A stretch of DNA of 64,000 nt from Fidelibacterota bacterium (GTDB taxonomy: Bacteria; Fidelibacterota; UBA8477; JABMPR01), in contig JAERTJ010000007.1 in the NCBI GenBank assembly GCA_016844945.1, positions 1-64,000 of the forward strand. The letters run 5' to 3'. A program made the position numbers and the translations under genes. Position 1 is the first letter of the stretch, and the number at the start of each line of letters is the position of its first letter. Below, piece by piece: positions 12,007 to 57,810 of the stretch. The notes under the pieces were generated by a model, which had not been told where the DNA came from, did not search any database, and worked only from the letters and a program-made list of their open reading frames with translations.

Positions 12007-15000
12007 ATGACAAAAAGGCTACTATCATTTGTGGCTGTCGTAGCGATACTTTCGTCCCTGGCATTTGGTCAGACAAGCGGAAAAATCGTTGGAACAGTGT
12101 ATGATGTGAGTCAAGAGGCACCTTTAGGCTTCACAAACGTTGTGGTTCAGGGAACTTCACTGGGAGCAGTCTCAGATGAAGATGGACGATATGTAATATT
12201 AGATGTTCCGCCAGGTGTATATACCATTGTATGTACATACATTGGTTATTCTCCGATGGAAATTCAGGAACTTGCAGTAATAAGTGGATTGACAACGATC
12301 CAGGACATCCAGATGCAAACGGAAGATGTCGTGGGTGAGGTTGTTACCGTTATCGCTGAAAAACCACTGATCAACATGAATGCCACGAATACAACTCGGG
12401 TTGTCGATGCAGAACTCATTGAGAATATGGCAGTTCGCGGAGTTCAGAATGTAGTCGCCATGCAAACGGGTGTCGTAGCCCATGATGGTGAAATCCACAT
12501 CCGTGGTTCTAGATATCAGGATGTCGCTTACTATGTTGATGGCGTTTACATGAATGATGCCTTCGACATGCGTAACACTAGCAATGTTTCCAATGTTGCC
12601 ATGGGTGAGATGAAACTTCAAACTGGTGGTTTTTCCGCGCAGTATGGAAATGCTAACGGAGGTGTGGTTTCCACATCTACACGCACGGGTGGCGAAAAGA
12701 TGTCACTGGATGTTGAATTTATTCAAGGTCTGGGTGCTTCAGGTGATGGAACAGAGGATAAGCTCTATTCGCTGGGTTATAGATTGTATAATGTCAATGT
12801 GGGCGGTGCTCTAGGTTCAAAAATTCGATATTTCATGAATTATGAAAACCGCACTACTGATGACCCAAGACCTTCTAACGCTCCTCACTACAGCATGGAT
12901 CGTGATGAAATTATGATCGAATGGGACTCCATTCATGTTGAATATAATGAAGAAGAGCAAAGAGACTATGCCAGTGGAGAATTGTGGGTAGATGGTCAAT
13001 ATGTTGGTGACATCGAAAACGATTTACATTCAATCCTGGAGAGTACACTTGAGGATATGCTCACAGAATATTATGCTGAGCAAGGTGTTGACTATGATCT
13101 TATCGATGCAGTGGTCCTAGCATCCACAGAGGATGACCACAAGTATGGTATCAATGGGTATAGCAATTTCCAGGAGCTTTATGGCGCCAGGAAGAACGTT
13201 GGTTCTGTAAGAAATACATTTGCTGGTAACGTGATGTTTGACTTGAAGCCTTTCAAAATCAAAGTTGGTGGAAACATGAACGCGATCGAGTCACATGGCT
13301 ATACAAATATCGATTATGCCACCACACTTTTGAACTCAGATTATAACAGGAAGAGAACATCTTTACAGACATCTCTATATACCAATCTGACCTGGGTTCT
13401 TTCAACAAAATCTTACCTGACAGCCAAGCTATCTCTCTATAACTATAAAGAAGAGATGGGGGATGATCATCATTGGGACAATGTCCTTGGATATGGTGAC
13501 CCATCGGATCCTTATAATAGATATATGAGTGCAGTTGGACAAAATCCACTCTCAGTAGCTGATCTGGCAGATTATCTTTCCTATGGTCGTGTCTGGGATG
13601 ACTATTCCAAACAGTTTACGTCCTACACTGGTATCACTGTAGATTATTTAAATCAAATCAATGAGCATGAGCTCACTGCTGGTTTTGAATATCGTGACAA
13701 TACAATTAAGTATTATCGAGTTGCTCAACCAATCGAGCTTGCAGAAGGTTTTGATATTGGTCCTGATAGTGTTCTCACCGATCAACAGGTTTATGAGATC
13801 TATCGGAACGCTTATACTGAAAACTTTGGATTTGATCTTTTTGGTGAAGAAGATGAAGATGGTCAGGAATGGCAAGATCCAGGTGAACCAACTATCTTTG
13901 GTGCCTATATCAATGACAAAATCGAGCTGAAGGATTTGGTTGTAAACTTGGGCTTAAGGTACGAGTATTTTAACCCGAATACGCAGGCACCAGAAGATTG
14001 GTATGATATCAGAATGACGAATGGTCGCATTGATCGTGACTCAAGTAGGTATGTTGATGTTGATGCCGATGTTCAATTGAACCCACGTATTGGATTTTCA
14101 TTCCCAGTAACGGATAAGACTAAATTCCATGCTCAATACGGAAAATTCTCTCAACATCCATTGCTGAACAGACTGTATCTATCAGATGTTGTTTTTGCGA
14201 ACAATTTTAAGTCTGGTAACTATACAAGATCACCAAATGCAAAACTTAGATCAGAGAAAACCACTCAATATGAGGTTGGCTTTTCTCAGGTAATGGGTGA
14301 AAATGTTGCAATTGATGTGACTGGTTTCTATAAAGAAATTAGAGATTACACCCTTATCAAGAACCTTTTTGGTGCTCAACTTGATCAATCAGATTTTGTC
14401 TGGGCCCAATATCAGAATGGTGATTACGGTGTCGTGAAAGGTATTTCCTTTGGGCTGGGTATGAACCGTGTTGGTGGATTAATGGCCAACCTGAGTTATA
14501 CTGCTCAGTGGGCAGAAGGTACCGGATCTGATCCTGAATCAAACTACTATGTAGCCTGGCAGTCAGACCAGGGTGAAGCTGGTTTCCCAAGTTTGATTAA
14601 TCCACTGGATTATGATCAGCGTCATACGGGTAACCTCATGCTTGATTACCGTCTCCAGCAAGATCTGGGCATGTTCTCGAATACTGGTGTAAATATGGTT
14701 TATACCTTTGGTTCAGGAACAGCTTATACACCTTCAGCGATTGAATCATCGCTATTTGGTCGGGGCGAGATCTATCCTACTTCACCTATTAATAGTGGAT
14801 ATACACCCTGGACAAGCAATCTAGATATCCGGTTGGATTCTGGTGTAAAACTAGGCTCCGTCGATATGACTATATATCTACTCGTTCAGAATGCCTTGAA
14901 TGCTAAGAACGTGATTACTGTTTATAGCGGTACAGGTGATGCCGGTACTGATGGCTGGTTAAATTCTGATCCTGGTAAATCTTACTTATCAGGTAACGCA

Positions 15001-15111
15001 AACAATGAAGACTACTATCTCAGCCAGGTTCGTGACCCAGCAAATTGGGATAAACCACGCTCCGTACAACTCGGTGTGAAGTTGAATTTATTGTCTGGGG
15101 AGAATAATTAA
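12007..15111 (+). CDS. TonB-dependent receptor, SusC-like (module A)
   Basis: Outer-membrane gated barrel, 1034 residues. A strong AAGGAGG site precedes the ATG. A signal peptide (MTKRLLSFVAVVAILSSLAFG) is followed by a carboxypeptidase-regulatory-like domain (about residues 23-105: GKIVGTVYD, GASSDEDGRY-like GAVSDEDGRYVILDVPPGVY), a plug (about 125-230; IHIRGSRYQDVAYYVDGVYM, then GGFSAQYGNANGGVV) and a long barrel. The architecture is that of SusC/RagA-type receptors, but no SusD follows. Instead the next gene, overlapping by one base (TAATG), encodes a large exported protein, and a PorV-like barrel comes third. The C-terminus (VKLNLLSGENN) runs six residues past the expected terminal beta strand. 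The ligand is unknown. Confidence 0.88.
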   Translation: MTKRLLSFVAVVAILSSLAFGQTSGKIVGTVYDVSQEAPLGFTNVVVQGTSLGAVSDEDGRYVILDVPPGVYTIVCTYIGYSPMEIQELAVISGLTTIQDIQMQTEDVVGEVVTVIAEKPLINMNATNTTRVVDAELIENMAVRGVQNVVAMQTGVVAHDGEIHIRGSRYQDVAYYVDGVYMNDAFDMRNTSNVSNVAMGEMKLQTGGFSAQYGNANGGVVSTSTRTGGEKMSLDVEFIQGLGASGDGTEDKLYSLGYRLYNVNVGGALGSKIRYFMNYENRTTDDPRPSNAPHYSMDRDEIMIEWDSIHVEYNEEEQRDYASGELWVDGQYVGDIENDLHSILESTLEDMLTEYYAEQGVDYDLIDAVVLASTEDDHKYGINGYSNFQELYGARKNVGSVRNTFAGNVMFDLKPFKIKVGGNMNAIESHGYTNIDYATTLLNSDYNRKRTSLQTSLYTNLTWVLSTKSYLTAKLSLYNYKEEMGDDHHWDNVLGYGDPSDPYNRYMSAVGQNPLSVADLADYLSYGRVWDDYSKQFTSYTGITVDYLNQINEHELTAGFEYRDNTIKYYRVAQPIELAEGFDIGPDSVLTDQQVYEIYRNAYTENFGFDLFGEEDEDGQEWQDPGEPTIFGAYINDKIELKDLVVNLGLRYEYFNPNTQAPEDWYDIRMTNGRIDRDSSRYVDVDADVQLNPRIGFSFPVTDKTKFHAQYGKFSQHPLLNRLYLSDVVFANNFKSGNYTRSPNAKLRSEKTTQYEVGFSQVMGENVAIDVTGFYKEIRDYTLIKNLFGAQLDQSDFVWAQYQNGDYGVVKGISFGLGMNRVGGLMANLSYTAQWAEGTGSDPESNYYVAWQSDQGEAGFPSLINPLDYDQRHTGNLMLDYRLQQDLGMFSNTGVNMVYTFGSGTAYTPSAIESSLFGRGEIYPTSPINSGYTPWTSNLDIRLDSGVKLGSVDMTIYLLVQNALNAKNVITVYSGTGDAGTDGWLNSDPGKSYLSGNANNEDYYLSQVRDPANWDKPRSVQLGVKLNLLSGENN

Positions 15112-18100
15112 TGAAGAACTATAAAAGAATATTTGCGCTCTTGCTGGTTACCCTGCTAGTATCTGCTCCGTATTTCTTAGGAGCGACAGAGGCTATTGAT
15201 AAGGAGGGATTGGGTAAAACTGCCAATGCCTCAACCGGCAAGTTTGATGGAAACCGGATCGATGATGATCTGGAAAATAACGGTATGATTGTATCGCATC
15301 GTCCCTCTGGTCACTCCGGTATGGAATGGCCCGCTGGCAATGGTACATACTCTGTTTATGCTTCAGGAGTGTGGCTAGCAGGTAAGGTCGGTGGTGAGAT
15401 TAGAACTGCGGTTGCTGAATATGGACCAGAGTTCAACCCAGGACCCTATGGCAGTGATCCTAATGATGCAAATGGTGAATATGTATTATACAAGGTTAAT
15501 AAAACTGATCTTGATAATCCAGCAGACAATCCTGATTTTGCCAACTGGCCTGTTCAGGATGGTGCACCATGGATCGATGTAGATGGGAATGGTACATATG
15601 AACCAATGCCCGGTGGACCCGATCATCCAGAATTTATCGGTGATCAAGTGATCTTCTATGTTATGAACGATGGTGTTGCATCTAACCATGACATTTTTAG
15701 CACCGAACCACTAGGACTTGAAATCCGGATGACTATCTGGGGTTATAACAGAGCTGATTATTTTGGTGATATGATGTTTACCAAAGCCCAGATTTATAAC
15801 AAAGGTGGCAATAACATCACAGATGCCTATTTGGGTATCTGGTCAGATCCTGATCTTGGAAATGCTGGTGATGACTTTGTGGGTTGTGACCTTGATCTCA
15901 GTCTTGGCTATTGCTATAACGATGGTGAAGATAATGCTTATGGTTATGCAGCTCCTGCTGTTGGATACGATTTCTTCCAGGCTGCATTTCCTACTGGCGA
16001 TCCCAACGATCAGCAGTACTGCTTCGGCGAATTGAAAACCGGGTATACTGGATTACCTATGACATCATTTGTAAAATATATCAATAGTGATGATGTCTAT
16101 ACAGATCCTAATGATGAACAAGAAGCCTACAATTATATGTCAGGCTATAAAAGAGATGGTTCACCGTTTATCAACTCAGCAACCGGTGAAGCAACAAAAT
16201 TTGTCCATCCTGATGATCCCAACCTGAATATTGATGGTACGGATAATATCTGGGTTGATGGTGATGACAATGCTGCTGATGACCGTCGCTTCCTCATGAA
16301 TGTAGGACCCTTCAATTTCAGCGCTGGTGATTCAGCTGAAGTTGTATTTGGTATCTTGCATGCTCAGGGATCCAGCGCCCTTGGTTCAGTCTCACTGTTA
16401 AAATATATCGACAAGTTTGCACAGTCAGCTTATGATGCAAATTTTGATCTTCCTCCTGCTCCTCCAATTCCAGAATTGACCATTACCAGCGCTGCTGGTA
16501 CAGTTGTTCTTGAATGGGAAGACAATGCAGAGGATTATTCTGCACTGGTTGCGGGAAACAACTCCTACTACAATTTTGAAGGCTACAACATTTATATGCA
16601 TGAAACGGCAATAGGTGTTGGTGAGAAACAAATTGTAGCGACATATGATCTGAAAAATGGTATAACAACCATTAAAGATGATGTCTATTTAACTGAGTAC
16701 AATGACGTTGTAACCATTCCAACTCAGGTTGGTACAGATACTGGGATCAAAAGATCAATCGCAATTACGACGAATCACCTTCTCGGTGGTATTCCTCTGA
16801 TCGATGATCGAGCGTACTATTTCTCAGTTACTGCCTATGGATACAATGGGTTCGCAACACCTAGAGTCCTGGAGTCAAGCTCTCCTATCTGGGTAGTTCG
16901 ACCACAAACCAATTCAACACTTGATGTGGTTGCGACGATGTCCACATCGTTTGAAACCGTTCATACCGCTGATGGTGCCTTGTCTGATGGTGAGGTTACA
17001 GTGCAGGTTATCAACCCCAGCAAAATTACCGGGGATGAGTATGAGGTATCTTTTACTGAACATACCTTTGATGTGAATGATGGACCCATGGTTGTCTGGA
17101 ATATCGAAAATACACGTACTGGTGAGATGGTTCTCGAAAACCAGACAATCCAGAGTGGTGTTGACCTACTTACTGGCGAAGCTGTTGGAGCAGATCATGC
17201 ACCATCCTTTGATGGAATGCTCGCAACTGTTAATGGTCCTGCCAATGGTTTTCATGGTGTTTTTATTGTACACGATGGAACAACGGATAGATCAGCACAG
17301 ACAAGTGATATTGTTGAAGCCTCAGTTCTTATGGAAGATGTCTGGCATTATGGCTGGAATCTCGATGAATTCTGGCCATTGATCACTCATCCAGATGGCG
17401 GACGCTATTGGGTCACCCAGGGTGGTGGAACGGCAGCTGACAATGCATCATATGTTGCGCGAGTGCTGAGAAACAATAACGCAGACTGGGCAATACCTTA
17501 TGACTTTGAATGGCGCTGGTTAGGTGATGGCGACAGCTCATGGGGAATTTGGTATGGTATAGAAACTGATGTTGCTCCTGTCAAAGTTCCATTTGAAATC
17601 TGGAACATCGGTATTGGTACTCCTGATGATCCATCAGATGATGTTCAGATGATTCCTAGAATCTATGATGTTGATGCCAACGGTAAATACAACTGGCAAG
17701 GTGATGTCGATGATTCAAGTCTCGATAACGATGCTCATACAGACTGGGTCTACTGGTGGTCACTTGCTGATGGTAGTACATGGGCTGATTTTGAGGCTGC
17801 TGCAATAGCTGGTGATGCAAGTACTGCAAATGGAATGCGCGGACATGAAGTCCTGGCGAGAACCATCTTCATGAACCATAATGGTGCTGGTGGTGAAACT
17901 GATTCCATCGCGAACAGTATGCTCACCGGTCCCAATAGCACTGATTGGACCGCTGCAGATACAGCGTTGTTCCTCGATCAGGGATGGTTCATTGATGATG
18001 TGAATACCAATGCCGTAGTTGAAGAAGGTGCAACCCATGCCTATGGATTTGTGCTACCATTTCCAGAAGCTGGCTCAGTATATCGTTGGATCACCAATAA

Positions 18101-18479
18101 GCCAAATGCGCTATCCGACAAGTTCACATTTACAACTGACGGATTTGCGGCTACAACCGTCGCTTTTGATCCTGAAAATATAAAAGTATGGCCAAACCCA
18201 TATTTTGGATATAACCCTGAAGAGCGAACACCTCTTGAGAATAATATTCACTTTATAAACTTGCCAGAAGTAGCAAATATCAAGATCTACTCTCTTGCGG
18301 GACAATTGGTTCGACATATTGAACATAATGGTGGCCAGGAAGAAGTCTGGAACGGACAAAATAGCTTCAATGTGTTGGTCGCTTCAGGTGTTTACATCGC
18401 CGTAATCGACACTAAAGAAGGTGAAAAAGTCCTTAAACTAGCTGTCGTCATGCCACAACAACGACTTGATGTCTACTAG
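15111..18479 (+). CDS. Large exported protein with V-x-PNPY type sorting domain (module A)
   Basis: Unrecognised 1122-residue secreted protein. It has a signal peptide (YKRIFALLLVTLLVSAPYFLGA). The N-terminal region (about 30-120: MEWPAGNGTYSVYASGVWLAG, GGEIRTAVAEYGPEF) resembles the second genes of modules B and D. The middle is Asp/Gly-rich with fibronectin/Ig-like segments (for example PELTITSAAGTVVLEWEDN, about residue 457). The last 100 residues begin IKVWPNPYFGYN and contain IKIYSLAGQLVRHIEHN and VASGVYIAVI, a FlgD-Ig/Por-type C-terminal domain lacking the NYPNPFNP motif. Its start overlaps the receptor stop, so the pair is translated together. It could be a receptor partner lipoprotein substitute (SusD role) or a T9SS-like cargo; no catalytic motif is visible. 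Confidence 0.75.
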   Translation: MKNYKRIFALLLVTLLVSAPYFLGATEAIDKEGLGKTANASTGKFDGNRIDDDLENNGMIVSHRPSGHSGMEWPAGNGTYSVYASGVWLAGKVGGEIRTAVAEYGPEFNPGPYGSDPNDANGEYVLYKVNKTDLDNPADNPDFANWPVQDGAPWIDVDGNGTYEPMPGGPDHPEFIGDQVIFYVMNDGVASNHDIFSTEPLGLEIRMTIWGYNRADYFGDMMFTKAQIYNKGGNNITDAYLGIWSDPDLGNAGDDFVGCDLDLSLGYCYNDGEDNAYGYAAPAVGYDFFQAAFPTGDPNDQQYCFGELKTGYTGLPMTSFVKYINSDDVYTDPNDEQEAYNYMSGYKRDGSPFINSATGEATKFVHPDDPNLNIDGTDNIWVDGDDNAADDRRFLMNVGPFNFSAGDSAEVVFGILHAQGSSALGSVSLLKYIDKFAQSAYDANFDLPPAPPIPELTITSAAGTVVLEWEDNAEDYSALVAGNNSYYNFEGYNIYMHETAIGVGEKQIVATYDLKNGITTIKDDVYLTEYNDVVTIPTQVGTDTGIKRSIAITTNHLLGGIPLIDDRAYYFSVTAYGYNGFATPRVLESSSPIWVVRPQTNSTLDVVATMSTSFETVHTADGALSDGEVTVQVINPSKITGDEYEVSFTEHTFDVNDGPMVVWNIENTRTGEMVLENQTIQSGVDLLTGEAVGADHAPSFDGMLATVNGPANGFHGVFIVHDGTTDRSAQTSDIVEASVLMEDVWHYGWNLDEFWPLITHPDGGRYWVTQGGGTAADNASYVARVLRNNNADWAIPYDFEWRWLGDGDSSWGIWYGIETDVAPVKVPFEIWNIGIGTPDDPSDDVQMIPRIYDVDANGKYNWQGDVDDSSLDNDAHTDWVYWWSLADGSTWADFEAAAIAGDASTANGMRGHEVLARTIFMNHNGAGGETDSIANSMLTGPNSTDWTAADTALFLDQGWFIDDVNTNAVVEEGATHAYGFVLPFPEAGSVYRWITNKPNALSDKFTFTTDGFAATTVAFDPENIKVWPNPYFGYNPEERTPLENNIHFINLPEVANIKIYSLAGQLVRHIEHNGGQEEVWNGQNSFNVLVASGVYIAVIDTKEGEKVLKLAVVMPQQRLDVY

Positions 18480-18493
18480 AAAGGAGAATGACG

Positions 18494-19558
18494 ATGAAAA
18501 ATAATAAAATTGCATTATTCTTGATAGCGCTTGTTGTTGTTACAGCTGCATTTGCTGGAACGGGAAAATCCGTGGGTACTTATGGTGCTCTCGAGCTTAC
18601 CATTCCCACAGGTGCTAGATCCGTTGCTTTGAGTGAATCTAATATCGCGATTATCTCAGGTGCGGATGCTATGTTTTATAACCCCGCTGGTATAGCAAAG
18701 GTTAGTACCAATATGGAAGCTCAGCTTTCACAATTGAATTATCTTGCTGATATCGGTGTGTCATATGGTGCATTTGTTGCCAAGGTAGGGGAGAATGCCA
18801 TAGGTATTTCTGCAAAATCTCTATCATTTGGAGACATTCTACACACCACCGCAGAAGATCCTAATGGCTATCAGGACTCATATTTTTCGCCAAAATTCAT
18901 CACAGTGTCAGCGTCAGTGGCTAAGATGTTTTTTGATCGTGTTGCCTTTGGTGCCACGTTCAAAGTGATTAATGAGACCTTTATTCAGACCTCTGCAACA
19001 GGTGCTGCATTTGATATGGGTGTTCAATACAAATCTGCATCATTACCACTAAGTGTTGGTGTTTCGTTAAAGAACATTGGTGTAAAAATGACCTTTGCGG
19101 GCAATGATATGGAACAGAAACTGGAACCAGAAGATTCTGAAGAAGGAACAATTCTTGAGAATTTGGCTGTCACAGGACAGGCTTTTGAAATTCCAGCATC
19201 TCTGGATATTGGATTAACCTATACAGTTGCAAATATGGTTAATGTCCATGGTGTTTTTAAGAACAACTCATTCGGCTTTAACGAATATCGCCTGGGTGCT
19301 GACTATGCCATGAAGACAGATGCATTTAGTGGCTGGGTTGGTGGTGGTACCAGTATGATCGCCGTCGACGATAACACCGATGATTGGGGTGAAGAGCTTG
19401 AACAAAGACTCACCAGTAATACATTTGGGTTATCATTTGGTGGTGGATTGACTGTTCCGATTTCCAGCTTTGTTTTTGGAATAGAATATGGATATAAATC
19501 AGTGACCGCTCATGGTCTAAATGATTTGAGTGTGCTAGCATTCACATTTGGATTCTAA
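18494..19558 (+). CDS. PorV/PorQ-family outer-membrane barrel (module A)
   Basis: Fourteen-strand-type FadL-like barrel of the PorV/PorQ (UPF0164-like) family. The ATG at 18494 is preferred over the one at 18488 because AAGGAG (18481-18486) is 7 bases from the former and only 1 from the latter. The signal peptide is KIALFLIALVVVTAAFAG. Family hallmarks: GARSVALSESNIAI, then GADAMFYNPAGIAK (about residue 56) and LNYLADIGVSYGAFV. It ends in a C-terminal aromatic strand (VLAFTFGF). In Bacteroidetes, PorV shuttles T9SS cargo to the attachment complex. Placement directly after an exported protein with a sorting domain suggests a shuttle or anchor for that protein. A strong terminator follows, closing the three-gene operon. 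Confidence 0.85.
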   Translation: MKNNKIALFLIALVVVTAAFAGTGKSVGTYGALELTIPTGARSVALSESNIAIISGADAMFYNPAGIAKVSTNMEAQLSQLNYLADIGVSYGAFVAKVGENAIGISAKSLSFGDILHTTAEDPNGYQDSYFSPKFITVSASVAKMFFDRVAFGATFKVINETFIQTSATGAAFDMGVQYKSASLPLSVGVSLKNIGVKMTFAGNDMEQKLEPEDSEEGTILENLAVTGQAFEIPASLDIGLTYTVANMVNVHGVFKNNSFGFNEYRLGADYAMKTDAFSGWVGGGTSMIAVDDNTDDWGEELEQRLTSNTFGLSFGGGLTVPISSFVFGIEYGYKSVTAHGLNDLSVLAFTFGF

Positions 19559-19583
19559 TTGATTCCACTGATATAGCTTAATC

Positions 19584-19615
19584 AAAAAGGGCTGCTCATT
19601 TGAGTAGCCCTTTTT
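19584..19615 (+). terminator. Intrinsic terminator of module A
   Basis: AAAAAGGGCTGCTC pairs with GAGTAGCCCTTTTT: a 9-bp stem (one G-T pair, 19589-19597 with 19602-19610), a 4-base loop, then TTTTT. It lies 26 bases after the PorV stop. Confidence 0.9.
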
Positions 19616-45029: not shown

Positions 45030-45030
45030 T

Positions 45031-47446: not shown

Positions 47447-47483
47447 GATGGAATATAGCTGAAGGCTAGTGAAAGGAAGAAGT

Positions 47484-49406
47484 ATGAGAAAGTTAGTTAC
47501 AATTGTCTTAAGTGGAGTATTTGCAGTGGGTCTCATGAGCGCAAATCTCCCAAGACCTGATCAAGCTGTATCTGCAGCTTTTAACAAAACAGGTGAACCT
47601 CAGGGCACAGAAATTTCTGTCAACCCTTCAGTGGGAGGCACGCCTTCAGGATTGCGCGAAAACAACGCTGTTCTCGTAGACTCTTCACAAAATGGATATG
47701 GTCTGGTTTCTGCAGAAACGAATCCTATATCAGTTAATCCAGATAATCATGACCAGATTATCATGGCCTACCGCCAATATACAGATGGTTCTGCTTCAGG
47801 TTCAATCGGTATGGCAGCCTCAACAGATGCTGGTCTGACATGGACAACCTATTCAAACCTCAATTTTGGTCTGGCAGATGCCGGTCGTTATCCCTCAGCC
47901 CTGGCTGCTGGAGATTATCCAATGGCTCTCTGGAACGAATACGGTGGTGGTGGTGGAACTTATGGTGGTCGTCCCTACTATACCTTTGATTTGTTCGGCT
48001 ATGGTGGTGGTTTCTGGTTCCCGGGACAGGATATTCACAACAGTCCCGCTTCCCACGATTCTTGGGTACTGGTACCAACGCAGAATGTTGACGCTGATGG
48101 TAACTATATTGTTAATGTTGTTGTAACTGACTGGTCAGGAAATAGAGACCGCATCCACTTTAGAGCTCAAACTGATGGTGCCTGGGCTGGTGCAGCATTA
48201 CCTATGTCATCCGCAACACTCCTGGTGGAAAATTCATTAGACTTCCGTTTTGAAGGTGAAAGCAATTATACCTCAAACGGTAACATGGACATTAACTCAA
48301 GTGGTGTCGGCTATTATGCACTGACTTCCTACTGGAATGATGAGATTGAAATTGCCAACCATACACTTTTTATCAAAAAGACCACAGACTTTGGAGCAAC
48401 CTGGAGTGACTGGTATTACGTTCCAGATGAAGTTCTAAATGGTTATTTCGAATCTGTTTTTCCAGATAGTATTGAAGATGGTGAGGGTGGCTGGGCTGTC
48501 CTCAGTGATGCCTGGACTCCTTTCTTGGGTTATGATACTGAGGTAACAACAGATGAGAACGGTGGATTGCATGTCATTGTTCCTGTTCTACCCTCAGATG
48601 ATGGTGGTGTTTATCCATATTGGGCACCTGAAAATGGTATCTATCACTTCCATATGGCAGAAGATGTCTTTGCTCTGGCAAGTGGACCCGTGGATGTTGA
48701 GATCAGTACAGTTGCCAGTATGCAGTTGGGCTGGCAGATACTTGGAGACGGGGGCTGGCAGGCAAATGGTATGAGTGTAGCCACGGATCTCAATGTAGAA
48801 GATAAACTCTATCTGGTTTGGTATGATGTATCTGATACTGTTTCCATCGGAGACTCATTCTTCTCATATATTGATGTTATGGGCACTGTCTCATTCGACA
48901 ACGGGGCAACCTGGAGTGAAGCACAGAATTTGACCCAGACGTTTGATGCAAATATGGATGAGACCTATCCCCACCTGAACAAATTTGGTACAGATGGGCA
49001 AGTTGCCATGATGTATCAGATGCCTGACTATGATCAACCCACCGTAACACCAGATGAAGTGGCTGCAGATTATTTGAGCAAGGTCTACTTCATGATGGCT
49101 AGCATTGGTCCTGTTGATGTTGTTGATACTCCAGAGACTCCTGTTAGCTTCGAGTTGGCAAACAATTATCCCAACCCTTTCAACCCAACCACTACAATCG
49201 AATTCAGCATGCCTACTTCAGGTCTGGTTGAATTGAAAGTGTATGATATTACCGGTCGGGAAGTAAGTACAGTTCATCAGGGATATCTGAATGCTGGTGT
49301 TCATCAGTATACATTTAATGCAGGTGATCTGGCAAGTGGGGCGTACTTCTACGGTGTGAAATCTCAGGGATTTCAAACGTTTAAGAAGATGCTTCTGGTT
49401 AAATAA
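47484..49406 (+). CDS. Secreted Asp-box (BNR-like) protein with NYPNPFNP-type sorting domain
   Basis: 640 residues. The ATG at 47484 follows AAAGGAAGAAG; a GTG at 47469 lies upstream of this site and is less likely. Signal peptide LVTIVLSGVFAVGLMSA. The body has several Asp-box motifs of sialidase-like propellers (STDAGLTWTTY near 123, KTTDFGATWSDW near 302, SFDNGATWSEA near 474), spaced like propeller blades. No sialidase arginine triad or catalytic Tyr can be assigned with confidence. The last 85 residues are the sorting domain (ELANNYPNPFNPTTTIEFSM ... FKKMLLVK). It shares its promoter arrangement with module B, so co-regulation with that operon is likely. A double hairpin follows the gene. 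Confidence 0.8.
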   Translation: MRKLVTIVLSGVFAVGLMSANLPRPDQAVSAAFNKTGEPQGTEISVNPSVGGTPSGLRENNAVLVDSSQNGYGLVSAETNPISVNPDNHDQIIMAYRQYTDGSASGSIGMAASTDAGLTWTTYSNLNFGLADAGRYPSALAAGDYPMALWNEYGGGGGTYGGRPYYTFDLFGYGGGFWFPGQDIHNSPASHDSWVLVPTQNVDADGNYIVNVVVTDWSGNRDRIHFRAQTDGAWAGAALPMSSATLLVENSLDFRFEGESNYTSNGNMDINSSGVGYYALTSYWNDEIEIANHTLFIKKTTDFGATWSDWYYVPDEVLNGYFESVFPDSIEDGEGGWAVLSDAWTPFLGYDTEVTTDENGGLHVIVPVLPSDDGGVYPYWAPENGIYHFHMAEDVFALASGPVDVEISTVASMQLGWQILGDGGWQANGMSVATDLNVEDKLYLVWYDVSDTVSIGDSFFSYIDVMGTVSFDNGATWSEAQNLTQTFDANMDETYPHLNKFGTDGQVAMMYQMPDYDQPTVTPDEVAADYLSKVYFMMASIGPVDVVDTPETPVSFELANNYPNPFNPTTTIEFSMPTSGLVELKVYDITGREVSTVHQGYLNAGVHQYTFNAGDLASGAYFYGVKSQGFQTFKKMLLVK

Positions 49407-49476: not shown

Positions 49477-49491
49477 TATGCCAAGCATGGT

Positions 49492-49519
49492 GAGGTCACT
49501 TTTTAGCTGACCTCTTTTT
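49492..49519 (+). terminator. Intrinsic terminator after the Asp-box gene
   Basis: GAGGTCA (49492-49498) pairs with TGACCTC (49508-49514), followed by TTTTTG. It is the second of two hairpins in tandem. Confidence 0.8.
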
Positions 49520-49588
49520 GTTTTCTAGCTCGACTGTGATACGGAATGTTTACAGTACAAAAGAGTGAGTAGGGTGCAGGGAGATTAC

Positions 49589-52500
49589 ATGAGAAGTATT
49601 TGGTTAAAATTCAGTCTCGTATTGCTTAGTTCTACGCTGGCATGGTCCGCAACCGTTGGAACCATATCGGGTAGAATCACAGACGATCGGACAGGTGAAC
49701 CTATTATTGGTGCCCAGGTGATGATTTCAGCACTAGGTCTCGGGGGATCCACTGATTTTGAGGGTGAATATTACATCCAGAACGTTCCAGTGGGCGTTCA
49801 TGTTGTTCAGGTCTGGATGATTGGTTATGCCAGAGTAACCATCAATGATGTTGGTGTTGTTATGGATCAGACCACACCCGTAAATGTTTCTCTTGAAGAA
49901 GAAATTATCGAAGGTCAGGAAGTGACAGTTGTTGCAGAACGACCCCTGGTTGAAAAAGATGTGACCGTTAAGAAATTGGTTCGAACTGCTGAAGAAATTC
50001 AGAACCTACCAGCTAGAAACTTGACAGAAATGCTCACGCTTCAGAGTGGTGTCATTCAAATTAAAAGTGCTGAGCATGGAATTCCTGGATTCGAAGATCG
50101 CGGTATTGAACAGATTCATGTCCGTGGCGGACGATCCGGTGAAATCGGCTACACCATTGATGGTATGTATATTGAAAATCCCATCTACGGCGGTATTGGC
50201 AAGGGAACGCGCCTGAATACCCATTCCGTTCAGGATCTCATCACTCAAACCGGTGTGTTTAGTGCTGAATACGGTGATGCCATGTCACAGATCGTGAATA
50301 TGATTACTGCAATAGGTGGCGATCGCTACGCGGGTACTTTTGAGTGGAAGGGTAGCAATCGTGGGCCTCTTAGCTCTGAACAGGATCGTTTGAGAGACTA
50401 CAATTCGTTTGCTGGCTCAGTATCTGGTCCCATATGGCCTGGCATGAACAAAGTTACTTTCCATATCTCTGCAGATTATACCAATAGAGCTTATCGTGTG
50501 TTAGAATTTGATGATAAGATTTATGAGGAGGGAGATCCTGGGAATCGACAGAATCAGGCGAATAAAGTGCACTGGTTGGATCGCTATGCCGGTTGGAGAG
50601 CTTTTGGCTTTGACCGCACCTACGATATTTTCACCAAGCTCCACTGGAAGATCGATTCTTATAAGCAACTGAATTTTACCCATTGGCTGGTTGACTCAAA
50701 ATTTAAAACCTATGGTCGTTGGAATCAGTTCTACGAAGAGAATAAGAATGTGAACCATAAGTATTCACAGAGATACCATCTGGAATTTCGCCATCAGCTC
50801 AATGAGAAAACCTACTATACCCTGAGTGCATCTCGTTTTACTCAGGAAATGGAAATTGATGTTGAAGATGGCGATATGGATGGTGATGGCTATCCAGATT
50901 GGGTCGAGTACAAAATCGGAACTGAAGCCCGTGGAATACATAACGGTGTGGATTATAAAGGGGAGTGTGATATCCCTTATGAGAGTGAACAGACCTTTGG
51001 ACCCGGTGTTTATGTCCCCAATGATGGACCCGAACCCTTAGTCCTGGAATCCTGGGGTCCTGGCTGCCTCCGCACCATGATCACCTACTACTGGCGTAGC
51101 CCTCAGCATGTCGGAGGTGCCAGTTTTGATTCTACGCGCGAAAATATCATTATCGAGAAGGGTGATCGAATTGTGATTCACCCCTACGACAAGGTCTACA
51201 TTAAAGAGATTTTCCTGGAAGAGAAATTTGATGACAATGGGATGATTGTATCAACCAGTAGATATTCAAATGGTAATCTCATTAATCCTTTGGATTCTCT
51301 GGAATATTCTGATAAAAATGGTCAGACCCATTGGTGGCACTATGGTGATCCACTCAATGAGTATCTTGCAGAAGGTCAGTACACACCCTTTGCTTTCATG
51401 TTTTATCCGGACTCAACCTATGAGCGCTATTCTTCACCCACGGGACTGAGCGCGTCTGAATTTGCAGCCATGCGGGACTCCCTCTACTATATACAGTATT
51501 ATGAATATGGGTCAGGTGGGGCAGATCGCTATCGTCATTATACAAAGAGTGTAACTGATGAGCTGAAATTTGATCTGACCAGCAGAGTGAATAAGCACCA
51601 TCAGTTGAGAGGTGGAATCGATTTAAAACGACACCTCATCACTTTCGATGAAACTCAATTGCCCTGGTTGGATCCTGCTTATGGAGAAACCTATGGATTG
51701 CCAGACTCTGTTGAACGAGATGGCCCTCTGGAAGAGTTTGTTTATGGGACAGGTGAAAAATCTCCTATCGAAATTGGAGCCTATATTCTGGATAAAATTG
51801 AATATCCCTGGATGACAATCAACATGGGTGTCCGTTTTGATATTCAGAATTCACTGGATAGTTCCTGGGCTGACCCGCGGGTGAGGACTTCTGGATCCGT
51901 ACCAACAGAATGGAATGTTTTATGGTCACCACGATTGAGTATCTCACACGTGATTACCGATAAAGCGACCTTTACTTTCGGTTATGGACGTTATTTCCAG
52001 AATCTAACCTATCGAAATATTTATCTAAATGACGAAAATGATCTCACTACGGCACTCCCCATCGTTGGAAACAGTCATGTTCAGGCTCAGGGCGTAACAG
52101 CTTATGAATTCGGGTTGAACTGGGAGATTGTAGATTTCTGGAAGTTAGGAGTTGTTGGCTGGTCCAAAGATTACTCTGACTTAGGATCTACCGAACGGGT
52201 TCAGGCATTCCCTTATAGCTATTCTGTAGTTGTGAATTATGACTACGGATCTGCTAGAGGTCTGGATCTTCGTCTCATGAAACGGGGTGGATCTGCCTGG
52301 TCAACCGATATTCAATATACACTATCCAGAGCAACAGCCAACCGTGCCGATACCTGGCAGGGTTATCGCTCATCAGATACTCAGGAATCCATGCCTAAAA
52401 AAGAAGTTCTCATGGATTATGACCGTACTCACAATATGACAATCACTGGTGGATACCAGTTCAATAAGAAGAACTCACCCCGCTTGTTTGGTCGAGCTAT

Positions 52501-52873
52501 TCTGGACAAAACCTCAGCACACATGACTCTGGTTGCTATTTCTGGTTCACCATACACACCTTTTGATATCAATTTGAACAGGGGTGGAGCTACCAACTCC
52601 GAGCGCATGCCCTGGTTTATCGAAACCAACCTGGCTGTGAGAAAAATGATGCGAGTAGCCAACGTCAATATGTCTCTGGGTCTGATTGTCAGGAATATTT
52701 TCAACCGGGAAAATATTATTGATATCTATGAGGAAACGGGGAGCCCAACAGATCCTGGTCGCACTGCAACACGCTCAATCGAGCAGGGAACCAGTTCATT
52801 GACCCTCTATGATAGACCTTATTATTATTCCGACCCCCGTCAGATCGATCTGACCTTGAAACTGAATTTTTAG
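49589..52873 (+). CDS. TonB-dependent receptor (module D)
   Basis: 1094 residues from the ATG at 49589, chosen because AGGGAG lies 6 bases upstream and a signal peptide (MRSIWLKFSLVLLSSTLAWSA) starts there; a GTG at 49565 is before that site. Carboxypeptidase-regulatory-like domain (GTISGRITDDRTGEPIIGAQV), plug (IHVRGGRSGEIGYTIDGMYI, GVFSAEYGDAMSQIVNM) and a barrel ending in QIDLTLKLNF, a proper terminal strand. One calcium-type loop (DMDGDGYPDWVE, about residue 428) is in a barrel loop, weaker than the module B array. It is followed after 5 bases by the exported partner and then PorV, completing the third triad. The ligand is unknown. Confidence 0.88.
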   Translation: MRSIWLKFSLVLLSSTLAWSATVGTISGRITDDRTGEPIIGAQVMISALGLGGSTDFEGEYYIQNVPVGVHVVQVWMIGYARVTINDVGVVMDQTTPVNVSLEEEIIEGQEVTVVAERPLVEKDVTVKKLVRTAEEIQNLPARNLTEMLTLQSGVIQIKSAEHGIPGFEDRGIEQIHVRGGRSGEIGYTIDGMYIENPIYGGIGKGTRLNTHSVQDLITQTGVFSAEYGDAMSQIVNMITAIGGDRYAGTFEWKGSNRGPLSSEQDRLRDYNSFAGSVSGPIWPGMNKVTFHISADYTNRAYRVLEFDDKIYEEGDPGNRQNQANKVHWLDRYAGWRAFGFDRTYDIFTKLHWKIDSYKQLNFTHWLVDSKFKTYGRWNQFYEENKNVNHKYSQRYHLEFRHQLNEKTYYTLSASRFTQEMEIDVEDGDMDGDGYPDWVEYKIGTEARGIHNGVDYKGECDIPYESEQTFGPGVYVPNDGPEPLVLESWGPGCLRTMITYYWRSPQHVGGASFDSTRENIIIEKGDRIVIHPYDKVYIKEIFLEEKFDDNGMIVSTSRYSNGNLINPLDSLEYSDKNGQTHWWHYGDPLNEYLAEGQYTPFAFMFYPDSTYERYSSPTGLSASEFAAMRDSLYYIQYYEYGSGGADRYRHYTKSVTDELKFDLTSRVNKHHQLRGGIDLKRHLITFDETQLPWLDPAYGETYGLPDSVERDGPLEEFVYGTGEKSPIEIGAYILDKIEYPWMTINMGVRFDIQNSLDSSWADPRVRTSGSVPTEWNVLWSPRLSISHVITDKATFTFGYGRYFQNLTYRNIYLNDENDLTTALPIVGNSHVQAQGVTAYEFGLNWEIVDFWKLGVVGWSKDYSDLGSTERVQAFPYSYSVVVNYDYGSARGLDLRLMKRGGSAWSTDIQYTLSRATANRADTWQGYRSSDTQESMPKKEVLMDYDRTHNMTITGGYQFNKKNSPRLFGRAILDKTSAHMTLVAISGSPYTPFDINLNRGGATNSERMPWFIETNLAVRKMMRVANVNMSLGLIVRNIFNRENIIDIYEETGSPTDPGRTATRSIEQGTSSLTLYDRPYYYSDPRQIDLTLKLNF

Positions 52874-52878
52874 GTGAT

Positions 52879-55800
52879 ATGATGAAAAAAATAATCACAT
52901 CAATACTATTGATACTGCTTATTCTTCCACTCTGGATCAATGCAGCAGAACCCAACCTTTACCCTGCACAATCTCTGGGGAAGACATCTGCAATTGATCC
53001 CGTGTTGAATAGAGCGCGTGGATATATGAGCAAGGGTGAACTACAGTTTGCCACTCATAACTATGGAAGCTTCATCGAATTTGATGATAAGAGCTCACCC
53101 TCTGGACTTTACAAAGGCTATCAATACATTTCTGATGTCTCATTTATCTTTGGAGTCCCCGGTAGAACCCCAGGTGGTGCGATGACACCCTGGTCGCTGA
53201 GACCCCCATATGTTGAGGCTCTGGAACATTATCGGACAGATACCCTGGTTTACTGGGGCTCAACTGTGTCTGAATCCTGGTTTGACCGGGTTCAGGATAA
53301 AAAGCAGGTTGACTGGGAATCAGTAGCCGATCACTATGGCAATCTCCATAGTGGAGATGTCATGGCAGGCGAGATTTACGGTGGTATTTATACTGATACA
53401 GGTGACCCTTACCCATTATTAGCTTCCAGCGATATTCCAGATAGTTGGCCCATGCGCATTAATGATGAAACAGGTCTTGAGGAACGTACCTGGCCAGGTG
53501 ATTGGGCTGTAGAAACTGAAGAAGGTCCAGCCAAGGGTCAGGAGATTTTTGGTCGCCACATTGGTGATCAGGACATCTATATGGAGTTTGATGATAGATT
53601 TGCTACCCGTGATGAAGATATGACCCAGGGTTATCCCACAGGGATGCATGTCACGGTGAATGCCCACTCCTATGGTCGTTCCTATGCCGAGGACATCGCA
53701 TTTTTTACGGTAAAGATTGTCAATCAATCTTACAAAGGTTTTCCAATGGATACCAATGGGGATGAAATACCAGATTCTGTGTGGGTTCCCATCACTCATG
53801 AAGATGGCTCGGTGACGGGACAATTCATGGGTCGTAACTTTGTAGGCACACCAGGTGAATTGGGTGATGGATCCAAGTATGGATATGACTATCGAGGTGC
53901 CTATGGTGGCTTCTATTTTGATGTCGATTCATACTCACGTACCGCCGATGGACGCTATACAGGACGGTCACATGATGACGATATGATGGCTTTTGATACG
54001 ACTTATGATATGGCCTATATCTGGGATTGGAATGATGATAGTAACGGTGCAGACAATCTGGCCTATTCAGCGCTGAAATTGTTGGATACACCTCTGGCGT
54101 CACGTGATCTGGACATCAATGGCGATGGAGATGTAGATATCCGAGAAGGTGATGCCCTCGGTTTGACTGACTGGCATTGGTTTGACTGGTATAAACGTCC
54201 AGGTGTTTTGAAAGATGAGGGTGGTGGCTCAAGCTGTTCAGATGGATATGCTGGAGCCGCAGGCTGCCCAGGTGCTGCGGATAAAGAGAATATTATGTTT
54301 GCACTCATGTCAGGGGATACCTCGTACGTGGGTCTGGCAAATCGGAATTATAAGGATTGGGAGTGGAGAGGATTATCCAGCTCAACACCCAACCCATTAA
54401 ACAATTCTTATGATGAATGGTACTTCCATCCAGATCTGGATGGAACCCAAAATCCTCATTTTGATTCACTCGAAGGCTTGTATGAAATAAGTAATGAGGA
54501 TGGGACACCGGGTTTGGATTGTGTCTTTATGATGTCAGCTGGTCCATTTGATCTGGACTCAGGTGATACCACATATTTTTCATTTTCCGTTATCATGGGT
54601 GATCCACCATCAGATACAAAAACCTTTGAGACACCTCCGGACTTGGTAGCCAATGCTAAAATGGCTCAAATCATGTATGATCTCCAATACCAGGGATTTT
54701 CTCCTCCTGATGCGCCTACTGTCTCAGCAGTAGCTGATGATGGAAGAGTAACACTATACTGGGATTCAAAAGCTGAATCCAGCCTTGATGTGGTTACCGG
54801 TTATAGTGACTTCGAAGGATACAAAATTTATCGTTCTACTGATGGAGGCCAAACCTGGGGAAATCCCCACACCGATGTCATTTATAATAATGATGGACAG
54901 GCAGTGGGCTGGGAGCCAATCGCGCAATTTGATCTGACTCAAGAAGAAGATGAAGATCGATACAATGGCCGCTCAATCGGTGGTCCGGATCCTATGGCTC
55001 CTTGGTTCAATCTAGGTGAAAATACTGGTCTGGAACATCGCTATATTGATACAGATGTCATCAATGGAGTAACCTATTCATACTCTGTTGTTGCGTATGA
55101 TATTGGCATTGAGGAGCCCTATACAGTTTCATGGGATTTGGTTAGAGAAGATTCCATGCTCTATGAACCGGATACAGTAGTTTCGTTAAATAACCCGGAT
55201 CAGTGGGCTGCCCTGGAATCCTTAGAGAACTTCAAGGGCAATAGTCCATTGCTACCACAGTTTGTAACGGTTACCCCGGACGCTCGACCTTCAAATGCAC
55301 CTGATGTGTGGGGTCTGGAAGCAGCCATGTGGACTGTAGGAACAGGAGAAATGGAAGTTATTCCTACGAATCCTGATGAAGTGGAAACAAATCTTAACAC
55401 CTATTTCATATCGATAGATGCGGATCCTCAATGCTACACAAGCAACTGTAACAATCCGTACTATTATTTAAACCCAACCTACACAGTGGTAGATAGTGCC
55501 ACAGGTGATACCGTCCTCACAGGTCTTGATGTTGGAACCTCCACCATGTTTTCAGATGTCTGGGGTGGATTTCAATTTTATCTGGAAAACCAACCGCTGG
55601 CGACTGTTGATACCATATACTGGCAAAATAAGGGAAGCGAGGAAGCACCACAGTACAGAATTAGTATGGGTTCCTCGTCACCACCTAACCCTGCTGATTA
55701 TGAAATTCACTGGGATTGGGAAAACCCAAATGATGATATGATCGTTAATTTTCCAAATCAACCACCGAAAGTGCTTCCTTTCAGAGTCCATAACACCAGA

Positions 55801-56499
55801 TTTGGTGAAGACTCTAATGGAAATAATATCCTGGATGATGGGGAAGATCTAAACAATAATGGTATACTGGATCCATACCGAGAAGCTCGTCTCGCTATCG
55901 CAGGAAATGGTATTCCTGAGACATCACCAGATCCCAACTACCCTAACTTCCTTTCCTTTGAGCGTATAAGCTTCCTGGAAACGGAGGTGCTTGGGTATGA
56001 TTCCGTAACGGCGTTCGGAAACTTCACTTGGTTCCTGGATTTTGTTTGGGATACGACCCGTACTTTTTCAGGTGCATCGACGATTAGACATGCTGAAACA
56101 GGGGATGTTACACATCTGACCGTGGATAAACCCTATGAAGGGGGAGACATGTTCACTTTCCGTGCAAGGACGGTTTCAGACATGAAGGAAGTGGAAGAAT
56201 ATCACCTCAGTCAGGTCAGGGTTGTACCAAATCCTTATATTGTCACTGCGAACTGGGAAACCGATATCAATCACAAGAGTATTCACTTTACTCACTTGCC
56301 TGACGAATGTGTGATAAAAATATTCACGCTGACAGGCGAATTGGTTTATACCATTCTCCATGATGATATCTTTAGTGGTCAGGAAGAATGGAACCTCAGG
56401 ACGATGAATCGTCAGGAGGTGGCACCAGGGCTCTATGTCTATGTTGTTGAAACCCCTAATTTCGAAAAACACGTCGGCAAATTTGCCGTCATTAGATAG
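52879..56499 (+). CDS. Exported partner protein with V-x-PNPY type sorting domain (module D)
   Basis: 1206 residues; the second ATG at 52882 fits the AGGTGA site better and may be the true start. Signal peptide IITSILLILLILPLWINAA. N-terminal region (about 45-110) aligns loosely with the second genes of modules A and B. Calcium-type loops occur at about 411 (DINGDGDVDIREGDALGL) and 977-1003 (DSNGNNILDDGE, DLNNNGILDPYR). A fibronectin-like domain sits near 620-700 (PPDAPTVSAVADDGRVTLYWD). The last 97 residues start VRVVPNPYIVTANWE, include IKIFTLTGELVYTI and VAPGLYVYVVETP, and end VGKFAVIR, close to the module B protein. Four Cys in two pairs (SSCSDGYAGAAGC; CYTSNCNNP) may form disulfides. Role as in the other triads: surface partner of the receptor, inferred. 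Confidence 0.76.
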   Translation: MMKKIITSILLILLILPLWINAAEPNLYPAQSLGKTSAIDPVLNRARGYMSKGELQFATHNYGSFIEFDDKSSPSGLYKGYQYISDVSFIFGVPGRTPGGAMTPWSLRPPYVEALEHYRTDTLVYWGSTVSESWFDRVQDKKQVDWESVADHYGNLHSGDVMAGEIYGGIYTDTGDPYPLLASSDIPDSWPMRINDETGLEERTWPGDWAVETEEGPAKGQEIFGRHIGDQDIYMEFDDRFATRDEDMTQGYPTGMHVTVNAHSYGRSYAEDIAFFTVKIVNQSYKGFPMDTNGDEIPDSVWVPITHEDGSVTGQFMGRNFVGTPGELGDGSKYGYDYRGAYGGFYFDVDSYSRTADGRYTGRSHDDDMMAFDTTYDMAYIWDWNDDSNGADNLAYSALKLLDTPLASRDLDINGDGDVDIREGDALGLTDWHWFDWYKRPGVLKDEGGGSSCSDGYAGAAGCPGAADKENIMFALMSGDTSYVGLANRNYKDWEWRGLSSSTPNPLNNSYDEWYFHPDLDGTQNPHFDSLEGLYEISNEDGTPGLDCVFMMSAGPFDLDSGDTTYFSFSVIMGDPPSDTKTFETPPDLVANAKMAQIMYDLQYQGFSPPDAPTVSAVADDGRVTLYWDSKAESSLDVVTGYSDFEGYKIYRSTDGGQTWGNPHTDVIYNNDGQAVGWEPIAQFDLTQEEDEDRYNGRSIGGPDPMAPWFNLGENTGLEHRYIDTDVINGVTYSYSVVAYDIGIEEPYTVSWDLVREDSMLYEPDTVVSLNNPDQWAALESLENFKGNSPLLPQFVTVTPDARPSNAPDVWGLEAAMWTVGTGEMEVIPTNPDEVETNLNTYFISIDADPQCYTSNCNNPYYYLNPTYTVVDSATGDTVLTGLDVGTSTMFSDVWGGFQFYLENQPLATVDTIYWQNKGSEEAPQYRISMGSSSPPNPADYEIHWDWENPNDDMIVNFPNQPPKVLPFRVHNTRFGEDSNGNNILDDGEDLNNNGILDPYREARLAIAGNGIPETSPDPNYPNFLSFERISFLETEVLGYDSVTAFGNFTWFLDFVWDTTRTFSGASTIRHAETGDVTHLTVDKPYEGGDMFTFRARTVSDMKEVEEYHLSQVRVVPNPYIVTANWETDINHKSIHFTHLPDECVIKIFTLTGELVYTILHDDIFSGQEEWNLRTMNRQEVAPGLYVYVVETPNFEKHVGKFAVIR

Positions 56500-56508
56500 G
56501 GGGTTGCC

Positions 56509-57810
56509 ATGATGAATCAAATCACATCAAGCACTCCTGTCAGAATTTTCAATATGAGTAAAAATGTAATTAGAGCCTGTATGCTCATTGTTTTAATTCC
56601 TGGACTTGTATTCGCACAGGATACCAAGCAGGATTCTATCAATACAGTTTATCCTGGGGATGATTTCTCCAAGGTTGCGACGTCTATTGGTCAATTCCTG
56701 AAATTGGAATATGGTGCCGCTGGAGCGGCTCTGGGAGGTGCCTACACAGCCTTGGCATCAGGTCCCGCAGCCATGGCTTGGAACCCCGCTGGTATTACGT
56801 CCAGCACGGGTCCTGAATTATACATGAGCAATAATAAGCTCTACGCAGATATCTCGAACAGCTATCTCGGCTTTACCATCCCCATTGGCGGCGGTAACAC
56901 CTTTGGTGTCGTCGCACAATACATGAACTCAGGAGATATGGAAGTCACCACTCTGGAATACCCCGATGGAACTGGTGAGCAATTTCAGGCGACTGGTCTA
57001 GCTCTGGGGATTTCATTTGCCCGCCAATTAACGGACCGTCTCTCTGTAGGTGTCTCTTCCAAGATGGTACGCGAGACAATTTATCGTGAATCAGCAAGCA
57101 CTTTTGCCTTTGATATCGGGTCAAATTTTGACCTTGGGATCTATGGATTGATCCTGGGTATGTCTATTCAGAATTTTGGTGTAGGAAGTCGATTTGATGG
57201 ACCAGACCTCAATCAAAACCTCGATGTGAGCGATGATCTTCAGACGAATCCCGTAGTAACAACACGTCTCCTCACCGAAGAGTGGCCACTACCGTTGGTA
57301 TTTAGAGCCGGACTCCGTATGGATGTCCTTGGCGGAAAAAGCCCCTGGCTGCCAACACCCATACATCGTCTAAGTTTCCTCATCGATGCAAATGATCCAT
57401 TCGACTCTGTTCTCAGGGGAGCCCTTGGATTTGAGTATAGCTGGGATGACCTGCTTTTTGTACGCGGAGGCTACAAACTAAAATACGAGTGGCCCGTGAA
57501 GTATGACATATACACAATGCAGTACAACGGTAGTTACGATGTTGGCGAAATATTTATTGATTATAATGACAATGATGTACGCGATGCAGATGAGCCGTAT
57601 GAAGATGGTTTAGCTGTCAAAACAGATGAATACTCCTCCACGAGTTGGGATAGTTACTATGGTGCAGACAAGTATTCGCTGCGCCGGTTTTCAATCGGAG
57701 CCGGTTTGAAATACAATATGTATGGAACTAAAATGTTATTTGACTATTCATACTCAAATTACGGTATTTTAGGCATGGTACAACAAGTCTCAATTGGCTT
57801 TGGATTTTAG
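56509..57810 (+). CDS. PorV/PorQ-family outer-membrane barrel (module D)
   Basis: 433 residues, longer than the other two PorV-like proteins. A GGGGG-containing site precedes the first ATG; an internal ATG at 56554 would start closer to the signal peptide (VIRACMLIVLIPGLVFA). Family hallmarks: LKLEYGAAGAALGGAYTALA, SGPAAMAWNPAGITS (about residue 83) and an ending QQVSIGFGF. The extra length is an acidic insert near residues 345-385 that holds a calcium-type loop (DYNDNDVRDADEPYEDG), absent in modules A and B. Family knowledge: PorV shuttles or anchors T9SS cargo at the outer membrane. Here the adjacent exported protein also carries calcium-type loops. Confidence 0.85.
   Translation: MMNQITSSTPVRIFNMSKNVIRACMLIVLIPGLVFAQDTKQDSINTVYPGDDFSKVATSIGQFLKLEYGAAGAALGGAYTALASGPAAMAWNPAGITSSTGPELYMSNNKLYADISNSYLGFTIPIGGGNTFGVVAQYMNSGDMEVTTLEYPDGTGEQFQATGLALGISFARQLTDRLSVGVSSKMVRETIYRESASTFAFDIGSNFDLGIYGLILGMSIQNFGVGSRFDGPDLNQNLDVSDDLQTNPVVTTRLLTEEWPLPLVFRAGLRMDVLGGKSPWLPTPIHRLSFLIDANDPFDSVLRGALGFEYSWDDLLFVRGGYKLKYEWPVKYDIYTMQYNGSYDVGEIFIDYNDNDVRDADEPYEDGLAVKTDEYSSTSWDSYYGADKYSLRRFSIGAGLKYNMYGTKMLFDYSYSNYGILGMVQQVSIGFGF

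Follow-up and report, generated by a model that had tools for sequence, protein, structure and literature searches.

The 64,000-nucleotide window analysed here, meaning the whole stretch from position 1 to 64,000 of contig JAERTJ010000007.1 (contig G000:C7), belongs to a metagenome-assembled genome (MAG) of a Fidelibacterota bacterium with 4.73 Mb in 234 contigs, a completeness of 90.7% and a contamination of 6%. It contains three copies of a gene triad (Table 1). The first gene encodes a TonB-dependent receptor, the second a large exported protein whose C-terminal domain (CTD) begins with V-x-PNPY, and the third a barrel of the PorV/PorQ family. The original prediction, made from the sequence alone, had placed three such triads here with tight spacing, and both the open reading frames (ORFs) and the domain searches bore this out. 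The genes of triad 1 overlap by 1 base and are then separated by 8 bases, those of triad 2 are separated by 8 and 18 bases, and those of triad 3 by 5 and 9 bases. All three middle proteins have signal-peptide-like N-termini and C-terminal motifs that read KVWPNPY, KVVPNPY and RVVPNPY, respectively. Otherwise they gave weak sorting-domain matches only and have a conserved region, W.....DFEGY.IY, in common.

Table 1. Positions of the triad genes, their sorting domains and adjoining genes in the window.
Feature	Position	Strand	Description
Triad 1 receptor	12007..15111	+	1034 aa; N-terminal CarboxypepD_reg-like domain; Pfam PF13715 3.3e-14, PF07715 3.3e-8
Triad 1 middle surface protein	15111..18479	+	1122 aa; TIGR04183 28.6 bits (cut-off 23)
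Triad 1 middle protein, PorZ CTD match	residues 1014-1113		41.4 bits
Triad 1 V-x-PNPY-class C-terminal sorting domain	18174..18476	+	own-genome CTD search 103.3 bits
Triad 1 PorV/PorQ-family barrel	18488..19558	+	356 aa; NF033709 109.8 bits (cut-off 90)
Triad 2 receptor	21722..24913	+	1063 aa; PF00593 2.3e-24, PF13715, PF07715
Triad 2 middle surface protein	24922..27312	+	796 aa; PorZ CTD 20.7 bits
Triad 2 V-x-PNPY-class CTD	26998..27309	+	own-genome CTD search 104.4 bits
Triad 2 PorV/PorQ-family barrel	27331..28320	+	329 aa; NF033709 168.6 bits
Triad 3 receptor	49565..52873	+	1102 aa; PF13715 8.7e-16, PF07715 1.7e-7; alternative ATG start at 49589, as in the original prediction
Triad 3 middle surface protein	52879..56499	+	1206 aa; CHU_C 0.0063; all-beta model
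Triad 3 V-x-PNPY-class CTD	56209..56496	+	own-genome CTD search 131.2 bits
Triad 3 PorV/PorQ-family barrel	56509..57810	+	433 aa; NF033709 153.6 bits
Triad 2 accessory: ordinary type IX secretion system (T9SS) type A protein	28335..32843	+	1502 aa; Por_Secre_tail, FlgD_ig; 14 bases past the barrel gene; adjacency only
Triad 2 accessory: TPR lipoprotein-like protein	32856..34037	+	TPR_16 1.4e-5, below cut-off; 12 bases further; adjacency only
Triad 3 accessory: ordinary T9SS type A protein	47469..49406	+	Por_Secre_tail 1.7e-9; directly upstream of the receptor
Triad 3 accessory: ordinary T9SS type A protein with MAM-like domain	57873..60737	+	Por_Secre_tail 3.2e-11; 62 bases downstream; adjacency only

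Triads across the genome

While the three predicted triads are real, the count proved too low for the genome as a whole. Searching it with the barrel family returned 22 matches; in the sequence around them, 13 triads are complete and a fourteenth runs into a contig end. A search with the CTD only, independent of the barrel, was clearly bimodal: 13 proteins scored 103-133 bits and the next one 47.7, followed by approximately 90 ordinary T9SS CTDs below 43 bits, a figure counted by eye from the search listing. The 13 high-scoring proteins were exactly the triad middle proteins. A PorV-family neighbour was found in 13/13 of them as compared to about 1 in 90 ordinary CTD proteins (C94:45380, with the barrel directly downstream; Fisher p ~1e-15). 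Triads also account for 13 of the 36 Plug-domain receptors in the genome. Local amplification, considered as the origin of the three window triads, was rejected, since 10 more triads lie on other contigs and the window triads are equally distant from each other and from those.

The arrangement is not entirely fixed. One triad of this genome has the order P-T-M (barrel, receptor, middle protein; contig C112), the order T-P-M occurs in locus L213, and in some triads the middle protein and the barrel are separated by a lipoprotein-like gene of 454 aa or by a small lipoprotein. Genes similar to one such 454-aa gene (L029:5997-7361, on C154) were found within or adjoining triads in about 20 loci; by eye the product has the look of a parvulin/SurA-type peptidyl-prolyl isomerase, and an NCBIfam search with it gave no match.

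The receptor, the surface protein and the barrel were predicted to be inherited as a set, and the distances between triads agree with this. Among the 13 triads of this genome, Mantel correlations reached 0.71 for receptor and barrel, 0.78 for receptor and middle-protein body, 0.71 for middle-protein body and barrel, 0.65 for CTD and barrel and 0.64 for CTD and receptor, all five pairings lying at the floor of the permutation test (2e-4). When 104 triads were compared, the values were 0.72-0.86, which partly reflects species descent, unlike the within-genome values. Given these correlations, the triads duplicate and descend largely as units.

Triads across phyla

A barrel-first scan of GTDB genomes with a 5-sequence alignment of triad barrels yielded 78 loci distributed among Neomarinimicrobiota, KSB1, Calditrichota, Ignavibacteria, Kryptonia, Gemmatimonadota, Delongbacteria and Rhodothermia. 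The nearest named relatives, with 76-79% barrel identity, are Candidatus Neomarinimicrobiota, the phylum of this MAG. Among barrel-first and own-genome loci, the barrel directly followed the middle protein in 91 of the 101 cases not at a contig edge (3 misses resulted from an antisense ORF being picked over the barrel) and the receptor directly preceded the middle protein in 80/82. Because these loci had been found through the barrel, we drew a separate, CTD-first sample of the phylum. The CTD class was present in all 61 sampled genomes, with 1-21 copies each; a PorV-family gene lay within one gene of it in 39/39 fetched loci, and a receptor within one gene in all 34 loci having upstream sequence. 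Per-genome counts of the CTD and of PorV_fam were strongly correlated (n = 61, Spearman 0.87; 0.75 when controlling for rounded genome size). The proposed search for the three families elsewhere has thus found them together in several phyla across the Fibrobacterota-Chlorobiota-Bacteroidota (FCB) group. The original prediction had also set a rare PorV against one barrel per triad. Each triad does have its own barrel; the rarity does not hold for this phylum, where genomes carry 2-24 PorV-family genes above E 1e-20.

We considered whether three common outer-membrane families might simply have become neighbours through operon duplication, with no cooperation between their products. Co-duplication alone gives correlated distances. 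However, the adjacency holds over several phyla despite divergence, changes of gene order and inserted genes, and ordinary CTD proteins are not so linked, which makes this the least probable of the explanations that we weighed.

Receptors and the SusD question

All three window receptors score above cut-off for the Plug domain (PF07715) and for CarbopepD_reg_2 (PF13715), and the PF00593 barrel profile matches the triad 2 receptor only. The original prediction named SusD as the usual partner of SusC. The receptors are not SusC when judged against the curated threshold for the SusC/RagA subfamily (TIGR04056, 368 bits): no score exceeded 80 bits, the matches fell chiefly in the N-terminal domain, and triad 1 gave none. 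The observation that SusD is missing stands, with no SusD family or fold found in the middle proteins. The SusD families PF07980 and PF14322 had 0 matches in the genome, and PF07980 had 0 in 10 genomes of the same genus. A SusD fold in the middle proteins was rejected by family searches, by a PDB profile search and by a structure model. The model, made for the triad 3 middle protein, is nearly all beta, with a poor mean predicted local distance difference test score (pLDDT) of 63, and was used for secondary-structure class and CTD match alone. Its matches were FN3-like, the best one at full probability was PorZ, and SusD was not among the matches listed.

Barrels form a family of their own

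The window barrels exceed the NCBIfam PorV_fam cut-off (NF033709, 90 bits) with 110, 169 and 154 bits. They fall far below every equivalog cut-off, namely those of PorV (NF033710, cut-off 250; 45-64 bits for the window barrels and 45-92 for all triad barrels), PorQ (NF033711, cut-off 220; 77-96 bits) and PorV2. For many triad barrels the PorQ score exceeds the PorV score, and in the search for the PorP/SprF barrel (TIGR03519) one triad barrel reached 30 of 90 bits. For a separate PorV-like gene, on contig C212, the PorV equivalog score is 201 bits, and this gene lies outside the clade formed by the triad barrels (support 0.80). The score and position of this paralogue show that the triad barrels are an additional paralogous family beside housekeeping PorV.

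The fold of the FadL family allows another interpretation, in which the barrel is a FadL/TodX-type channel that imports hydrophobic compounds beside the receptor and has nothing to do with T9SS carriage. The triad 2 barrel does match Toluene_X (1.6e-5, below cut-off). Against this, a sequence search with the barrel placed PorV first (4e-31), ahead of FadL/TodX, the fold comparison described below gave the same order, and the close linkage to a sorting-domain protein would be left without a reason. We regard it as highly improbable.

A separate class of sorting domain

A tree built from the CTDs of the fetched loci places those of the triads in one group (0.97), separate from the PNPFNP type. 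Searched against PDB, the triad CTD profile best matched Porphyromonas gingivalis PorZ (2.4e-4), then PorU (0.065), and the profile of the ordinary CTDs of the genome matched FlgD, PorU and PorV-bound substrate CTDs, with PorZ not matched. Within NCBIfam, PorZ was matched by 9 of the 13 triad CTDs (best 8e-12) and the general sorting domain likewise by 9/13 (best 7e-8). The type A family TIGR04183 (cut-off 23) scored 28.6 bits for triad 1 and 15.4 for triad 3, with no match for triad 2, and the type B CTD (TIGR04131) had no match among the triad middle proteins. The triad CTD class thus appears to be homologous to the type A CTD yet separate from it.

The CTD and the barrel of triad 2 share a reading frame, and we modelled them as one chain across the stop codon, a modelling device with no read-through claimed, using an alignment of 20 natural in-frame rows. 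The model reached a mean pLDDT of 82 and a predicted template modelling score (pTM) of 0.80. In PDB the model matched PorV first, once bound to the RemA CTD (8gl6_F) and once within the translocon (6h3i_F), with FadL and TodX ranking lower. Compared to the pTM of ~0.65 that we estimate for the barrel alone, the value suggests that the CTD has a defined placement relative to the barrel in the predicted structure.

Such a barrel could serve as a private shuttle, ferrying the middle protein from SprA to PorU, where the CTD would be cleaved and the protein attached or released as an ordinary type A substrate. Among solved structures the barrels match PorV best, PorU is present in the genome and the triad 1 middle protein exceeds the TIGR04183 cut-off. 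A private shuttle would nonetheless need a reason, as every known type A substrate is served by the general PorV (PMC12618676, PMC12635249), and the CTD is PorZ-like, with many triad barrels nearer to PorQ than to PorV by score. The CTD proteins known to keep their CTDs are PorZ and PorU, with the CTDs held on PorQ and PorV (PMC10202324). Because the triad CTD is closest to PorZ, we prefer a barrel that anchors its partner and consider shuttling unlikely.

Secretion and carbohydrate context

The T9SS translocon and sortase are present in the genome (SprA 787 bits, PorU 675 bits), and SprA was found in 60/61 sampled genomes, the exception being a 65% complete MAG. Sugar-type solute-binding proteins or ATP-binding cassette (ABC) permeases, confirmed by Pfam for representatives, lie near the triad in 25/78 scanned loci, and a triad of this genome on C154 has the same arrangement downstream. 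An ordinary T9SS protein lies directly upstream of 50/104 triads, with CBM4_9 or CBM9-type domains in 5 of 10 sampled and additionally in L060. In Rhodothermus marinus, a polysaccharide utilisation locus (PUL) for alginate contains a tonB gene, a T9SS type A gene and a PorV/PorQ gene in triad order beside alginate lyases (PMC9530828). Judging from gene content, this context supports a probable role in carbohydrate uptake for a subset of triads.

The middle protein might instead be an adhesin or surface layer, with the receptor as a TonB-driven device or sensor and not an importer. The predicted large beta-sandwich/FN3-like arrays of the middle proteins are typical of adhesins, and dedicated SprF carriers hold gliding adhesins in Flavobacterium johnsoniae (PMC12618676). 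Yet the receptor accompanies every CTD-first locus having upstream sequence, sugar ABC importers follow many triads and one triad sits in an alginate PUL, so that a coat or adhesin module seems to us rather less likely still than a shuttle.

A proposed uptake unit

We propose, with a probability of roughly 0.6, that the triads are SusCD-like outer-membrane uptake units built from T9SS parts, in which a private PorV/Q-type carrier anchors each surface protein. A physical complex, an uncleaved CTD, substrate capture and transport are steps that we infer. The middle protein would exit through Sec and then the SprA translocon, where its PorZ-like CTD would be taken over by its own PorV/Q-family barrel and not by general PorV. 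By holding the CTD uncleaved, the barrel would keep this large beta-domain protein anchored at the cell surface, next to the TonB-dependent receptor. There the anchored protein could capture or present a substrate, which the receptor would import using energy from TonB; at some of the loci, the cargo may then be handed to a periplasmic sugar-binding protein and an ABC importer.

Several observations weigh against this proposal. No sugar transporter or carbohydrate-active enzyme was recognised beside the three window triads. The barrel parts of the window receptors resemble those of haem and B12 receptors, and likeness to SusC is confined to the N-terminus; cargo may therefore differ among triads. 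The pTM argument is indirect and rests on one cognate pair folded as a single chain. The 47.7-bit protein, a divergent relative of the middle proteins (L221:10216-12396, on C94), has no adjacent barrel and a receptor comes three genes later, where the contig ends; it may be an orphan substrate, or it may belong to a triad that the contig end truncates. Finally, the MAG is 6% contaminated.

A broader proposal, to which we would give even odds, is that the triads represent a third mode of T9SS substrate handling, defined by a type A-derived, PorZ-like CTD class with a private PorV/Q carrier-anchor per substrate and coupled to TonB, and that, outside Bacteroidia, they could be the principal SusD-free uptake complex in FCB bacteria.

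Neighbouring genes

Besides the accessory genes in Table 1, the window encodes a fourth, shorter TonB-dependent receptor (40865-43357, 830 aa), followed by two small ORFs and no triad. Tandem duplicate T9SS type A proteins, alike over their length, occupy 34075-37251 and 37529-40693, each with a GlgE N/S-like domain match. A lipoprotein-like protein with fn3 and FGE-sulfatase (formylglycine-generating enzyme) domains lies at 45707-47335, and a T9SS-exported subtilase-like protease, then FG-GAP-like repeats, could be read from the translation of 60778-64000. Elsewhere in the genome, a gene for an ordinary CTD protein and, after it, two weak PorV-like barrels lie beside SprA (L221:3088-5651, C94); this cluster could be the attachment-complex genes of this phylum. 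An open frame of 11,705 codons with a T9SS-like CTD is located at G000:C141:43872.

Comparison with known systems

The module as such was not described in the open-licence papers found, in line with the original prediction, although the three genes already stand next to each other, unremarked, in the alginate PUL of R. marinus, the sole precedent. Its tonB-hypA-hypB genes have the identical three annotations and order beside alginate lyases, a likeness by annotation, and were published as a transporter and hypothetical genes and not recognised as a recurrent module (PMC9530828).

Like SusC/SusD (RagA/RagB) of Bacteroidota, the triads co-encode a CarboxypepD_reg-like TonB receptor with a surface protein, exist as many paralogues and occur in part in PULs. 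Unlike them, they have no SusD family or helical SusD-like model, their receptors score at most 80 of the 368 bits for SusC, and the surface protein paired with them is a beta protein of T9SS type that has its own PorV/Q-like barrel. In the type B CTD and PorP/SprF systems (F. johnsoniae; PG1035-PorP-PorE), a surface-protein gene likewise adjoins its own FadL-fold carrier gene, and published carriers remain bound and anchor the substrate (PMC12618676, PMC9143113, PMC12635249). In contrast, the triads have a CTD of the type A/PorZ kind and a barrel of the PorV/PorQ family, and a TonB receptor belongs to the set. With SusD, SusC, type B CTD and PorP/SprF assignments all lacking in our searches, the triads belong to neither SusCD nor type B/SprF. 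The PorZ-PorQ pair of the P. gingivalis attachment complex differs in that PorZ serves delivery of anionic lipopolysaccharide (A-LPS), has the CTD alone and not its body in common with the triad proteins and has no known TonB receptor partner. It is similar in that the PorZ CTD is retained on the PorQ barrel (PMC10202324) and triad CTDs resemble PorZ most.

In current descriptions of the T9SS, type A substrates share the general carrier PorV and private carriers exist only for type B. Here, a type A-like CTD class is accompanied by private PorV-family carriers, with about 8 per genome on average in one phylum, and the class occurs in several phyla. This offers an answer to how substrates may be handled at the surface in FCB lineages without SusD, and gives many 'hypothetical' and 'PorV/PorQ family' annotations a functional label that can be tested in cultivated Rhodothermus marinus.

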